Shown here one piece after another: positions 816 to 44,033 of a DNA stretch of 52,774 bases. The position numbers and the translations under genes are program-made. Under the pieces are notes generated by a model. The model was not told where the DNA came from and searched no databases. It saw only the letters and a program-made list of their open reading frames with translations. Positions within the stretch are counted from its first letter, which is position 1. Each line of letters starts with the position of its first letter. The stretch comes from Flavobacteriaceae bacterium (GTDB taxonomy: Bacteria > Bacteroidota > Bacteroidia > Flavobacteriales > Flavobacteriaceae), in assembly GCA_015494075.1 (NCBI GenBank), contig WGBX01000016.1, positions 1 to 52,774 on the forward strand, in the 5' to 3' direction.

Positions 816-1565
816 ATGACTCAAGTTGAAAAATTAAAGACTTCAAAATTGCCAAAACATGTAGCAATAATCATGGATGGAAATGGCCGGTGGGCTAATA
901 GACAAGGCAAAAAAAGAGTTTATGGCCATCATGCCGGTGTAGAAACCGTACGGCAAATAGTTGAAGCATCAGCACAATTAAACATCAAGTTTTTGAGCCT
1001 GTATACCTTCTCAACAGAAAATTGGAATCGACCAAAAGAAGAAGTTGATGCTCTGATGAATCTTTTGGTAGAAACACTAAACGAACAAGCTGATGAATTG
1101 ATTAAACAAAACATTAAATTAAACGTTGTTGGTGACTTAACCATGTTACCGAAAAAAACGTTTACAACCTTGCAAATTGTGCTTAAAAAAACAGCACAAA
1201 ATAGCGGCATGACACTTAATATTGCTTTAAATTACGGAGGTCGTGACGAAATAGTTAAAATGACCCGCTTAATTGCAAAAAAAGTTAAAAATAATATAAT
1301 TTTGCCCGAAAGTATTGATGAAAATAAAATAAATTTGCACCTTTACAGCCATAATTTACCCGATGTGGATTTTATGATTAGAACAGGAGGTGAAAAAAGA
1401 ATCAGTAATTTCCTCTTATGGAAATTAGCATATGCCGAGTTGTATTTCACAGATATTCTTTGGCCTGATTTTAACAAACAACATTATTATGAAGCTTTGG
1501 CAGATTATCAAAACAGAGAAAGAAGATTTGGAAAAACAAGTGAACAAATTAACAATGAGAAATAA
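816..1565 (+). CDS. uppS: Isoprenyl transferase / undecaprenyl diphosphate synthase
   Basis: Motifs IMDGNGRWA, FSTENW, RTGGEKRISNFLLWKLAYAELYFTD. Confidence 0.95.
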   Translation: MTQVEKLKTSKLPKHVAIIMDGNGRWANRQGKKRVYGHHAGVETVRQIVEASAQLNIKFLSLYTFSTENWNRPKEEVDALMNLLVETLNEQADELIKQNIKLNVVGDLTMLPKKTFTTLQIVLKKTAQNSGMTLNIALNYGGRDEIVKMTRLIAKKVKNNIILPESIDENKINLHLYSHNLPDVDFMIRTGGEKRISNFLLWKLAYAELYFTDILWPDFNKQHYYEALADYQNRERRFGKTSEQINNEK

Positions 1566-4110
1566 ATTAAGTCTATTTAGCCTTTTAAGCCTATTTTTTT
1601 TAGGAAGTATATACAGTCAAAAAGTCCCTGGCGGCGACTATCAAATATATCAAATAGAAGATATTAAAATCAATGGTTTAAAACAGTTTAACCCCGAAAC
1701 CGTCAAGGCTTTTATTGGATTAGACAAAGGAGACGTTATTGAAGTTCCCGGAGAAAAAACTGCTGATGTTATCAACAAACTTTGGGATCTGGAATACTTT
1801 TCTGATGTTGACCTCTATATAATTCCAACCGGTGAGAATAAAGGAATTTTAGAAATAGATTTAAAAGAATTACCTAAAATATCAGATGTCATAATTACAG
1901 GCTTGTCAAAATCTAAACGCAAAGAACTGAAAAAAGATTTAATTCTTCGTAAAAATACCATTTTGACTGAAAACCTGAAAGCTCGTATTCAAGAAGACAT
2001 TAAAACCAAACTCTTAAAAAAAGGATTTTTAAAAGCAAACGTTCAACTTAAAACCGTAAAAGATTCAATTGACTATGTCAAACTTTATATTGATGTAGAT
2101 AAAGGCTACCGCGTTAAAATCAAAAAAATAAACATTACAGGTAATAAAGACATTAGTGCTCGTAAATTAAAAAAACAATTTAAACACACCAAAGAAGAAA
2201 GATTTTACCGCTTTTGGAAACGTTCCAAATATATTCCGGATGATTTTAAAGAAGACTTAGTAAAACTTGAAACCTATTACAAAGAAAAAGGTTATCGTAA
2301 TGCACGCGTCCTGTCTGACACTGTATATTTTGGACCCGATCAAAAACTTCGTATAGATGTCAAAGTAGAAGAAGGGCCTAAATACTATTTTGGAAATATT
2401 GACGTAGTTGGCAATCAACATTATACAACCCGGTTTATTAAAAAAATATTAGGTATTAAAAAAGGAGACGTTTATAATGGTTCTCTTATCAGTAAACGGG
2501 TTGATGATCCTACAAAACCCGATGCTGAAAGTGTCGCCAACCTTTATCAAAACAACGGTTATTTATTCTCTCGTATAAATTTGGTTGAAAAAGGTGTTCG
2601 AAAAGATACTATCGATTACGAGTTGCGTATTTACGAAGGCAAACCGGCCAAATTTAACAACATTACCGTCAATGGAAATTTAAAAACTAATGACAGGGTT
2701 ATTTATCGTGAATTACGAACCATTCCTGGTGCTACATATAGTAAACAAAACATTATACGTACAATCCGCGAATTGGCTCAAATGGGCTTTTTCGATGCCG
2801 AAAAAATAACACCCGATTTGAAAAATATCGATTCAAATGCCGGAACTGTTGATGTTGATTGGCATGTAGAAGAATCAGGAAGTAGCCAAATACAATTACA
2901 AGGAGGATATGATGGTAGATATTTTATCGGTACACTTGGATTAACATTAAATAATTTTTCCATTCAAAATATTTTTAATGGAAAAGAATACAAACCACTT
3001 CCAATGGGTGATGGTCAAAAACTTTCATTAAACTTGCAGGTTTCTCAACAGTATGAAACTTATAGTTTATCTTTCTCCGAACCTTGGTTTGGAGGCAAAA
3101 AACCACAAGCATTCTCTGTATCGACCTACTATTCAACATATTATGGTGTAGATTATACAGATTATACAACGCAATATGCAGAGATTGATCGCGATAAAAA
3201 ATTTATTATTACAGGTTTGACCGTAGGGCTTTCCAAAAAATTGCAATGGCCTGATGATTATTTCTTCGTAAGCCAATCTGTCAGCTTAAACCATTATAAT
3301 ATTAAAAATTACGGTTCAATCGCTACATTTGGATTTGATACCGGAACCTCAAATAACTTTTCTTATAACATAGTCTTTGGTCGAAATTCAAGTGGGCCAA
3401 ACCCTATTTATCCTACTGTGGGGTCAGATTTTAACCTTACACTAAAATTGACACCGCCTTATTCATTGTTCAGTAGACTAGATTATGCTACAATTGAACA
3501 AAATCCGGATTATTTGAATGAAGACGGCACACCGGACTATGAAGAAATCAATCGACAACGCTATAAATATATAGAATACTATAAAGTCAAAATGAGTGGT
3601 ACTTGGTATACAAGCTTATATAAAAAAATGGTGCTGCGATCAAAAGGAGAATTTGGCTATTTGGGTGCTTACAACAGTGACTTAGGAACACCTCCTTTTG
3701 AACGGTTTTATGTTGGTGGTACATTACCCACGGGCGGCAATCTGGACTCTCGTGAAACCATTCCTTTAAGAGGCTATCTAGACCAATCATTAAACCGTGA
3801 CTTTGGCAATGGCGGTGGTACCGTATATAACAAATTTTCAATGGAGTTGAGATATCCTATTACTTTGAAACCCCAAGCATCAATCTATTTATTAGCATTT
3901 GCCGAAGGTGCCAATACCTATGACAATATTAAATATTTTAATCCGTTCTCATTAAAAAAATCTGCCGGAGCCGGCATACGTATTTTTATGAGTGCCTTTG
4001 GGTTACTTGGTATTGACTTTGGCTATGGGTTTGATCGTGTTCCTGATGCAACCGGTGTACCGCAAGTATCCGGATGGCAAACTCATTTTATTATGAATCA
4101 ACGCCTATAA
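1555..4110 (+). CDS. bamA: Outer-membrane protein assembly factor BamA (start refined to MRNKLSLFSLL; the track start at 1432 lies inside uppS)
   Basis: POTRA repeats plus C-terminal Omp85 barrel (IPLRGYLDQ, GAGIRIFMSAFGLLGIDFGYGFD); refined ATG precedes a signal peptide and overlaps uppS by 11 nt. Confidence 0.93.
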   Translation: MRNKLSLFSLLSLFFLGSIYSQKVPGGDYQIYQIEDIKINGLKQFNPETVKAFIGLDKGDVIEVPGEKTADVINKLWDLEYFSDVDLYIIPTGENKGILEIDLKELPKISDVIITGLSKSKRKELKKDLILRKNTILTENLKARIQEDIKTKLLKKGFLKANVQLKTVKDSIDYVKLYIDVDKGYRVKIKKINITGNKDISARKLKKQFKHTKEERFYRFWKRSKYIPDDFKEDLVKLETYYKEKGYRNARVLSDTVYFGPDQKLRIDVKVEEGPKYYFGNIDVVGNQHYTTRFIKKILGIKKGDVYNGSLISKRVDDPTKPDAESVANLYQNNGYLFSRINLVEKGVRKDTIDYELRIYEGKPAKFNNITVNGNLKTNDRVIYRELRTIPGATYSKQNIIRTIRELAQMGFFDAEKITPDLKNIDSNAGTVDVDWHVEESGSSQIQLQGGYDGRYFIGTLGLTLNNFSIQNIFNGKEYKPLPMGDGQKLSLNLQVSQQYETYSLSFSEPWFGGKKPQAFSVSTYYSTYYGVDYTDYTTQYAEIDRDKKFIITGLTVGLSKKLQWPDDYFFVSQSVSLNHYNIKNYGSIATFGFDTGTSNNFSYNIVFGRNSSGPNPIYPTVGSDFNLTLKLTPPYSLFSRLDYATIEQNPDYLNEDGTPDYEEINRQRYKYIEYYKVKMSGTWYTSLYKKMVLRSKGEFGYLGAYNSDLGTPPFERFYVGGTLPTGGNLDSRETIPLRGYLDQSLNRDFGNGGGTVYNKFSMELRYPITLKPQASIYLLAFAEGANTYDNIKYFNPFSLKKSAGAGIRIFMSAFGLLGIDFGYGFDRVPDATGVPQVSGWQTHFIMNQRL

Positions 4111-21214: not shown

Positions 21215-22621
21215 TTATTTCACAATAAGCTTTTGAACCAAACTGTTTTGTCCAGAAACAATTTTAATTAAATAAATACCTTGTGGATAATCAGCCACTC
21301 TGATCTGCATATTCTGATCTGATTGGCCTCGATATACTTCTTTACCGGTTAAATCATTTATAAAAATTTGATACGGTAAATTGTTATTGTGAATAATATG
21401 TAAATTTGTACTAACCGGATTGGGATATATATGGAATTGATTGGCTAAATTATTTTCAATAGCTGATACAGAACCATTATGATAAAGTTTAGCGGTTCCG
21501 ACATAATTAGCAGTTAAACCGGTTTCAAACAAATCCATTTTTCCATCATTATCATAATCTATTGCATGTGCGTCAACATATTGCAAAGGCTCTAAAATAG
21601 CATCTGTATTTTCAGAGAATGAAGCAGCAGTATTAAGATAAATTTTGGCAATTAAAGTAGAAGTATTGTTACTATAATTATTTCCAGCTATAAATATATC
21701 CAGAGTCTGATCATCGTTAAAATCGGCCAGTTCAATATTAGACAATTGTTGGGCGCCTATAACATTAAAATTTGAATCCTCATCAAAAGAAGTCGTGTTG
21801 TTTATAAATAAATGCGCTTCACTTTCGCCTGTTGCAGTTCCGGTTATAACTAAATCAACTTTACCATCATTATTGACATCGCCCCACTCTATATCACCTT
21901 CTTTTAATTGCGGTAAACCAAAATTTTTCTCTGTAAAATTAGCATTCCCGTCATTTTCCCAAATTTTAGTATAGGGACTATTGGTTGAAGTATTTTCACC
22001 ATATAAAACTAAATCTGTATCGCCGTCATTATCATAATCGGCAAATTTAATATGACCATAAGAAATAGGAGGCAATGCTACATTGGTTAATTCGGTAAAA
22101 TCACCATTGCCGTTTCCTGAATAAAGTTTAGTTAAATTGGTATTGACAGACATATTCAAACCTGTAAGGCCCAAATCTATATTACCATCAGCATCAAAAT
22201 CAGCTAATTGAACTTCACCATAACCAACATCGGCTAGTGTAGTTGCATGCAAGCTAAAAGTGTCGTTACCATTGTTCAAATAAACTTCGGCAACGGTTGT
22301 AGCGCCATCATAACCCATAATAACAATATCTGATTTACCATCATTATTGACATCGCCCCAAACTGCGGAGCCGTTACTCCTCGTTGGCAAACCAGAACCG
22401 GTCAATAAGGTAAAACTGCCTTGATCATTTTTGTATAACCCACCGGTATTATTATTATTTAATTGCCCTGTAAAATATAAGTCTAAATCGCCATCATTAT
22501 CATAATCACCCCATGCAGAAAACCCATATGATAATTGTGGTAAATCGGCGGTTGCATCAACAAAACTTTGACCAAACATGCTTAAACCGACCCATAAAAA
22601 TAAGAAAGTAATTTTTTTCAT
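21215..22621 (-). CDS. Secreted FG-GAP/VCBS-repeat protein with T9SS type A C-terminal sorting domain
   Basis: Seven Dx(D/N)xDGxxDL-type repeats; C-terminus FHIYPNPVSTNLHI...GIYLIKIVSGQNSLVQKLIVK; refined start MKKITFLFLW. Confidence 0.9.
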   Translation of the reverse strand: MKKITFLFLWVGLSMFGQSFVDATADLPQLSYGFSAWGDYDNDGDLDLYFTGQLNNNNTGGLYKNDQGSFTLLTGSGLPTRSNGSAVWGDVNNDGKSDIVIMGYDGATTVAEVYLNNGNDTFSLHATTLADVGYGEVQLADFDADGNIDLGLTGLNMSVNTNLTKLYSGNGNGDFTELTNVALPPISYGHIKFADYDNDGDTDLVLYGENTSTNSPYTKIWENDGNANFTEKNFGLPQLKEGDIEWGDVNNDGKVDLVITGTATGESEAHLFINNTTSFDEDSNFNVIGAQQLSNIELADFNDDQTLDIFIAGNNYSNNTSTLIAKIYLNTAASFSENTDAILEPLQYVDAHAIDYDNDGKMDLFETGLTANYVGTAKLYHNGSVSAIENNLANQFHIYPNPVSTNLHIIHNNNLPYQIFINDLTGKEVYRGQSDQNMQIRVADYPQGIYLIKIVSGQNSLVQKLIVK

Positions 22622-22776
22622 ATACGCTTTTTTTGTTTGTGTTTTAAACAAAATTACTAAAAAATATTTAACTATTCTTTATATAATTACAAATATCCTT
22701 AATAAAAAATCAAAACCAAACTCTAACTCTCTGTATATAAAGCTTTTTTAATAACTTTACAGAAACTTAACCGAGC

Positions 22777-23250
22777 ATGAAATCTCAAACACAATGGTTT
22801 AATGAGTATGCTGAAAGCCATCAAAACTCATCAAATCAACATATTCATTATATTTGTGTCTCATTAATTTTTTTTAGTATTGTTGGGATACTAACAAGTA
22901 TTGACAATCCCCGGTTACAAAATATTTTGCCTGTTCACCATCCACTTATTGCCAATTGGGAAACAGTCGTATTATTTTTTATACTTTTATTTTACACTCA
23001 ATTTTTATTCAAAATATTTATAGAGATGTTTATTTTATCGGTTATAGCACGCCTTGGTAATTATTACTTATCAAAAGTTATACCGCTGTATTATACAAAC
23101 TTAATTATATTTGTTTTGACTTGGGTTGGCCAATTTTATGGTTATAAAATTGAAGGTAAAAAACTTTCCTTTTTAAGGATATGCAATTTTTGTTTATTGC
23201 CCCTGCCTAGGTTTAAAAAAAATATTGGGTTAGATTCAAATTTAATATAA
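22777..23250 (+). CDS. Mpo1-like (DUF962, YGL010W-like) membrane protein, C-terminus apparently frameshifted
   Basis: WFNEYAESHQNSSNQHIHYICVSLIFFSIVGIL and TWVGQFYGYKIEGKK match the family; expected KDxQFLxIxPAW motif is found in another frame at 23175-23207. Confidence 0.78.
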   Translation: MKSQTQWFNEYAESHQNSSNQHIHYICVSLIFFSIVGILTSIDNPRLQNILPVHHPLIANWETVVLFFILLFYTQFLFKIFIEMFILSVIARLGNYYLSKVIPLYYTNLIIFVLTWVGQFYGYKIEGKKLSFLRICNFCLLPLPRFKKNIGLDSNLI

Positions 23251-23255
23251 CTACT

Positions 23256-23654
23256 ATGAAACACATTAGAATTGTCCAAACACTCTGCCTTTTTGTAGGT
23301 GGATATTATGCCATCAGTTTGTTACTTTCTATGATTTATTTGATTTTTCAAACAGAGTCAAATACCATGCTGGTTTTGGGGGCTGTCTTAGGTTTAACAG
23401 CTGCCTATTTATTTTTTAAAGTATTTAATTTTTTTGAAAAACTTCCTAAAAAACAAAGTCTACGGACATTATGCACTATCAGTCTAATTTTAGTTGCTCT
23501 TCAAGTTATAATTAATTATTATATCGCAGAAAACAATTTGATTTCACCTGTTATTGAGGCTACTAAAACTATGAATATCACTTTAGCCGTTGACATTTAT
23601 GTCATCAGTTTAGTTCTCGGCGGGCTTTATTTAGGTCATCAACAAAAAAAATAA
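23256..23654 (+). CDS. Hypothetical membrane protein
   Basis: 132 aa, about four hydrophobic segments. Confidence 0.55.
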   Translation: MKHIRIVQTLCLFVGGYYAISLLLSMIYLIFQTESNTMLVLGAVLGLTAAYLFFKVFNFFEKLPKKQSLRTLCTISLILVALQVIINYYIAENNLISPVIEATKTMNITLAVDIYVISLVLGGLYLGHQQKK

Positions 23655-42464: not shown

Positions 42465-44033
42465 ATGAAAAGGAAGAGCATTATACTTTTGGTGGTTTTT
42501 ATGACCATTTCAGTCATAGGAATCAGAATGATGCAAGTACATTTGCGTGAAAATGATATAAAATTGCGAAATCAGCGATTTTATTATTTGATGAAACAAA
42601 TACTTTATGCAGTAACATCCAAGGCGCAAAATTATGAATATGACAAATATTACCAAAAGTTTAAAGATGCTAATGTTAAAGAGAGTGAAAATAACGCTTA
42701 TGAGTTTGTCTATAAAAAGGAAAACAAAAACAGTAGGGAGGTTTTTGCATATAAGCATTTAGTTTTAGAAAAAGGGATTAATTTAAAGTTCCCGATTTCA
42801 GAGCAGCAATTTGACTCGGTATTTGGAAAGCTGAGTATGTCAAAAACCAAAACGAGTTTTTATAGAAATAGCCATATTAGACAAGCTAATGAGTTTAACG
42901 GTGCTGATATTGACAAAATTGATAATAGATACCTTCAATCGACTTTTCAAGATATCTCAGTAATTGAGCCTATCTACAAAAGAGTTTCGATTGATAGTCT
43001 AAACAATTGGATTAAAGACGAATTATCTCGTAGAGGGATTAAATATAAATACGAATTCGGTATACTGAACGACGGTATTTTAACAAAGGTGCACTCTAAG
43101 CATTTTAAGCCTGACAGTAAAGAATTTAAGTATTATAAGTTTAGGATTTTTCCTGATAAATCAGGATTGACAAAATTTGAATTAGTTCTTGCATTTAATA
43201 AAAATGAGCTCTTTAAGCATGAAAATATGCGGGTTCAGTTTTTGTCTGATTTATTAATGATGGTAATTTTAATTGTTTATATTTTAACCATTTATTTTAT
43301 CATCCGACAAAAAAAGATATCTCAGATGAAAACAGATTTCATCAACAATATGACGCATGAATTTAAGACACCGATTGCCACGATAAACTTAATTGTTGAT
43401 GCCATGAAATCCCCGCGGGTTATTAAAGATGAAAATCAATTAAAAACCTATTTAAACATGCTTAAGCAGGAAAATAAGCGTATGCTCAATCAAGTTGAAA
43501 GCGTTTTAAGCTTGTCGGTATTAGACCGTATTGACTTAAAAACTGATAAACATCCGGTAGATATACATGAGATTTTGGACGTAGCCATACAACATGTCAG
43601 CCTGTTAGTCAAAGATAAAAACGGTCGTTTATCAACCGCGTTTGAAGCAGACCAAACAAATGTTTTAGGAGATGAAACCTTACTGACAAATGTCTTTGTT
43701 AACATTTTAGACAATGCTGTAAAGTACTCAAAAGAACAACCTGATATTAAAGTCAGAACATATAATGATAATAAAGGTTACTTAATAGTTGAAATCAGTG
43801 ATAAAGGTATAGGAATGAGTAAGTCGGTTCAAAAAAAGATTTTTAATAAATTTTATCGGGAGACAACCGGCAACATTCATAATGTTAAAGGTCATGGCTT
43901 AGGGCTTACATATGTACAAAAAGTTATTCACTCTCTCCGTGGAAAAATTAGTGTTAAAAGCACTAAAGGAGAAGGTAGTACTTTTATTATAAAATTGCCA
44001 TTGGCATACACAAACAATAAAATAGAATATTAA
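42465..44033 (+). CDS. Sensor histidine kinase
   Basis: MTHEFKTPIATINLI H-box, NVFVNILDNAVKYS N-box, DKGIGM, GHGLGLTYVQ; two TM segments. Confidence 0.95.
   Translation: MKRKSIILLVVFMTISVIGIRMMQVHLRENDIKLRNQRFYYLMKQILYAVTSKAQNYEYDKYYQKFKDANVKESENNAYEFVYKKENKNSREVFAYKHLVLEKGINLKFPISEQQFDSVFGKLSMSKTKTSFYRNSHIRQANEFNGADIDKIDNRYLQSTFQDISVIEPIYKRVSIDSLNNWIKDELSRRGIKYKYEFGILNDGILTKVHSKHFKPDSKEFKYYKFRIFPDKSGLTKFELVLAFNKNELFKHENMRVQFLSDLLMMVILIVYILTIYFIIRQKKISQMKTDFINNMTHEFKTPIATINLIVDAMKSPRVIKDENQLKTYLNMLKQENKRMLNQVESVLSLSVLDRIDLKTDKHPVDIHEILDVAIQHVSLLVKDKNGRLSTAFEADQTNVLGDETLLTNVFVNILDNAVKYSKEQPDIKVRTYNDNKGYLIVEISDKGIGMSKSVQKKIFNKFYRETTGNIHNVKGHGLGLTYVQKVIHSLRGKISVKSTKGEGSTFIIKLPLAYTNNKIEY

Follow-up and report, generated by a model that had tools for sequence, protein, structure and literature searches.

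Mpo1 of yeast is a dioxygenase that depends on Fe(II) and takes one carbon off 2-hydroxy fatty acids. By analogy with it, the long Bacteroidota form of the Mpo1-like membrane protein (PF06127, 2-hydroxy-palmitic acid dioxygenase Mpo1-like, formerly DUF962) is presumed to be, when intact, the same kind of enzyme. Among the top hits of the literature searches, no paper dealt with the catalytic residues of the Mpo1-like family, and no solved structure related by sequence was found.

The stretch of DNA analysed here (the window, 52,774 nucleotides) corresponds to the complete contig 16 in an environmental Flavobacteriales draft genome (2.16 Mb, 187 contigs, 94.6% complete). At positions 22777-23250 it contains a mechanically called ORF of 157 aa that belongs to the Mpo1-like family (PF06127) and departs from the family consensus at about position 23170. 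From the comparison with intact orthologs, this ORF is most probably a recent and real pseudogene of the long Bacteroidota Mpo1-like membrane protein (probability roughly 0.87).

Orthologs and the displaced C-terminal motif

The closest named relative for the Mpo1-like locus was contig JALWTX010000008.1 of a Flavobacteriales MAG, and the scan of genome contigs revealed no Mpo1-like locus beyond the one congener locus. In the congener G004 (comparison contig C8, 233,013 bases), an intact Mpo1-like gene lies at the same locus as the window ORF (G004:C8:34200-34655). Positions 84-52749 of the window are colinear with this contig along its full length, with no evident rearrangement. A stop flagged in the partner of the gene at 42465-44033 proved to be the natural stop codon, which the congener has at a slightly earlier position.

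Against the PF06127 profile, the window ORF scored 38 bits (cut-off 24) and matched profile positions 1-73 of 95 only, while the intact congener protein scored 74 bits over positions 1-91. In the ortholog search of 151 family genomes and 13 genus genomes, 21 intact orthologs were found in addition to the copy in the window, and every one of them was full-length, with an unbroken QF[YI]GHxxEGxKPSFxxDxxFLxIGPxW and a stop some residues further on. The window ORF does not carry the motif EGxKPSFxxDxxFLxIGPxW in frame; the motif was observed only in another frame, where it is cut by a TAG at the Trp.

A profile was built from the C-terminal motif of the 21 orthologs and scored on all 105,484 six-frame 11-mers of the window. 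The shifted-frame peptide KDMQFLFIAPA ranked first with 20.8 bits, against -21.7 bits for the annotated frame at this position. Since no other 11-mer exceeded the 8.1 bits of the runner-up, the presence of the motif in another frame is not due to chance. The letters and coordinates of the original prediction were correct, namely a T5 run at 23170-23174, an annotated frame reading ...EGKKLSFLRICNFCLLPLPRFKKNIGLDSNLI, and a frame from 23175 that reads KDMQFLFIAPA up to a TAG at 23208-23210. The family motif that it had expected was also found, with the 21 orthologs carrying a KDLQFLLIGPAW-like sequence following PSFx. Neither of the results that it had named as refuting was observed: in the ortholog alignment nothing like LRICNFCLLPLPR occurred in any ortholog, and the motif was present. 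The features of the locus are collected in Table 1.

Table 1. Features of the Mpo1-like locus and its neighbours, in window coordinates.
Feature	Position	Strand	Remark
FG-GAP repeat protein gene, T9SS C-terminal sorting domain	21215..22651		also L047 5-1435
Still-open part of the Mpo1-like pseudogene (probable)	22777..23172	+	codons 1-132; aligns colinearly with the intact orthologs (65% identical to G004)
Codon 123, TAT (Tyr)	23143..23145	+	His in 21/21 orthologs
First one-base loss	23170..23176	+	T5 here, T6 in both congeners
Out-of-frame tail of the called ORF	23173..23250	+	LRICNFCLLPLPRFKKNIGLDSNLI; no counterpart in any ortholog
C-terminal motif KDMQFLFIAPA	23175..23207	+	start codon is in another frame
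TAG in the ancestral frame (TGG to TAG)	23208..23210	+	Trp in 21/21 orthologs
Second net one-base loss	23211..23222	+	TTTAAAAAAAA in the window, TTCTTAAAAAAA or TTTTTAAAAAAA in congeners
TAG at the orthologs' stop position, ancestral gene end	23231..23233	+	alignment judged by eye
Gene for 132-aa predicted membrane protein	23256..23654		directly downstream of the Mpo1-like gene

Lesions and lost invariant residues

Compared with the two congeneric orthologs, both net one-base losses are in the same direction and do not cancel, and the annotated tail ends past the ancestral stop position. The base missing from the first site is most simply a T, because a run of six T is present in both congeners; a loss from the following A run is also possible, given that in some of the more distant orthologs an A4 run comes after T5 (TTTTTAAAA). 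The original prediction of a pair of compensating indels was not borne out, since the orthologs point to two non-cancelling net losses and a separate Trp-to-TAG substitution. At 23209, where an extra A had been proposed, simple substitution of G by A (TGG to TAG) agrees better with the orthologs: with the A removed, the stretch after the Trp would still be one codon short relative to VLKKIFG. These disabling lesions are absent from the intact orthologs, one of which lies at the same locus.

Upstream of the shift, over 132 codons, four otherwise invariant residues are altered in the window copy only (P29S, L76F, H123Y, and P130L). When each sequence was scored for changes at sites where all the others agree, the window copy had lost 4 of 24, and each ortholog 0 or 1 of 20-21. 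Among the invariant histidines, H15 (SH[QK]) and H24 ([IV]H) are kept in the window, and H123 (GH) is replaced by Tyr. The change from GH to GY had been noted in the original prediction and taken as a sign that the metal site may be relaxed. This agrees with the data, His being present at this site in 21 of 21 orthologs; His123 is a putative ligand. H15, H24 and H123, which all orthologs keep, are natural candidates for metal ligands, judging by their conservation; a structure prediction from two sequences (mean pLDDT 50) was too poor to place His123 relative to H15 and H24.

The three separate lesions (two net losses and the nonsense codon) fall inside 53 bases, at which point an assembly or sequencing error has to be weighed, with a gene that is intact in the organism and a miscalled T run. 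Such an error is improbable here. Homopolymer runs are the site of both indels, the draft genome is fragmented, and one of the three lesions may still be an error; however, two indel errors and one nonsense error would be required in this short span, and among the 51 contig genes with a syntenic partner in G004, 50 were without frameshift and only the Mpo1-like gene departed from its partner in this way. The four missense changes and the excess in evolutionary rate (see below) would also be left unexplained. Scattered sequencing errors would not produce three lesions so close together along with missense losses.

The T run could also be a site of programmed -1 frameshifting or transcriptional slippage, by which a nearly full-length enzyme would be made, and a -1 step at CTTTTTA would indeed join both halves of the conserved protein. 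This is very improbable. Translation of the joined product would stop at the TAG, short of the invariant Trp and the last residues, and His123, Pro29, and Pro130 would still be missing from it. In addition, C TTT TTA departs from the standard X XXY YYZ heptamer, a T5 run is short for slippage, and no ortholog is frameshifted, so that conservation of the slippery site was not found. Programmed recoding is therefore unsupported: a TAG closes the recovered frame ahead of the invariant Trp, and further invariant residues have been lost. Of the three options that the original prediction had left side by side, real mutation is the most probable, and sequencing error and recoding are both unlikely.

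Evolutionary rate, constraint and distribution in the genus

With the congener G007 as outgroup, 25 private changes were counted in the window copy of the Mpo1-like protein versus 8 in that of G004, and the window copy exceeded G004 with every other outgroup too. In the adjacent polyphosphate kinase (PPK), 14-21 changes fell on the window side versus 19-33 on the other side; as the neighbouring gene shows no excess on the window lineage, the window genome is not faster-evolving in general. Relaxed constraint of the kind shown by pseudogenes was thus observed both in the invariant-site losses and in the rate contrast with PPK.

The Mpo1-like gene appears to have been constrained for most of the window branch, because a branch codon model rejected omega = 1 on this branch (2dL 12.9), although with saturated synonymous distances this is a weak test that cannot date the decay. 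The differences between the shifted-frame motif and that of the congener are largely silent, indicating that the frameshift is recent. Taken together, the codon model and the largely silent motif differences suggest that the decay is recent.

The altered ORF might instead encode a truncated membrane protein that has acquired a new role other than enzymatic, given that 132 codons are still open and that the branch as a whole shows constraint. This is highly improbable, since the same truncated form was observed in no relative among the 13 congeneric and 151 family genomes, the lost residues are those that every ortholog keeps, and many genomes of the genus are without the gene. It is likewise very unlikely that, once the His presumed to bind metal had been lost, the ORF stayed expressed with a new role (or is joined by slippage at a low level), the shifted form being kept by selection in this species.

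The long ortholog was found only in the window's genome, G004, and G007, and was absent in 10 of the 13 genus genomes searched, although individual absences are uncertain because some of the other genomes are incomplete. At the same locus in G003, the FG-GAP/T9SS protein gene adjoins the PPK gene, with neither the Mpo1-like gene nor the 132-aa gene between them. In several other congeners the gene after the kinase is another one, apparently for a MATE-like transporter. Most searched members of this small-genome Flavobacteriales genus being without the gene, the Mpo1-like gene seems dispensable there.

The downstream gene for the 132-aa protein accompanies the Mpo1-like gene only in the window and in G004 (59% identity), and it is still open despite its broken upstream neighbour. 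Its product matched no family above cut-off (PF17629, 17.5 bits versus a cut-off of 27). A short PF06127 paralog is intact on contig 170 of the window's genome and is also present intact in G004. In another congener, G002, the short PF06127 paralog (L050, G002:C94, about 1470-1735, minus strand) gave two overlapping matches in different frames and also looks frameshifted, since past FEK, where an A run lies, it no longer follows the family consensus; this may be either real decay or an assembly error.

For the reading of the window ORF as a recent pseudogene, the following course can be proposed. Selection on the gene would have been relaxed late on the window lineage, and activity was perhaps lost first through His123, with the homopolymer-run indels and the nonsense change following or accompanying this loss. 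The decay would then be one step in the disappearance of the gene from the genus, with the window copy on its way out. The significance of the broken gene goes little beyond annotation: automatic pipelines will call a 157-aa Mpo1-like protein, though the C-terminal motif and the invariant His are missing.

Comparison with known systems

The window ORF is homologous to the long Bacteroidota form of PF06127 over codons 1-132, with the same start and at the same locus as the intact gene of G004. It differs from this form in that the frame is lost after codon 132, a nonsense codon stands at the conserved Trp, and His123, Pro29, Leu76, and Pro130 are changed.

With programmed -1 ribosomal frameshifting of the dnaX type, the window shares a T-rich run where two frames join. 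In contrast to that system, the window is without a canonical heptamer, its downstream frame is cut by TAG, and the arrangement is conserved in no ortholog.

The closest likeness is probably to ordinary bacterial pseudogenes with one-base homopolymer indels, from which the window copy differs in nothing of note: frameshift and nonsense lesions are clustered, the amino-acid rate is raised, invariant residues are lost, relatives are intact, and the gene is missing in much of the genus.
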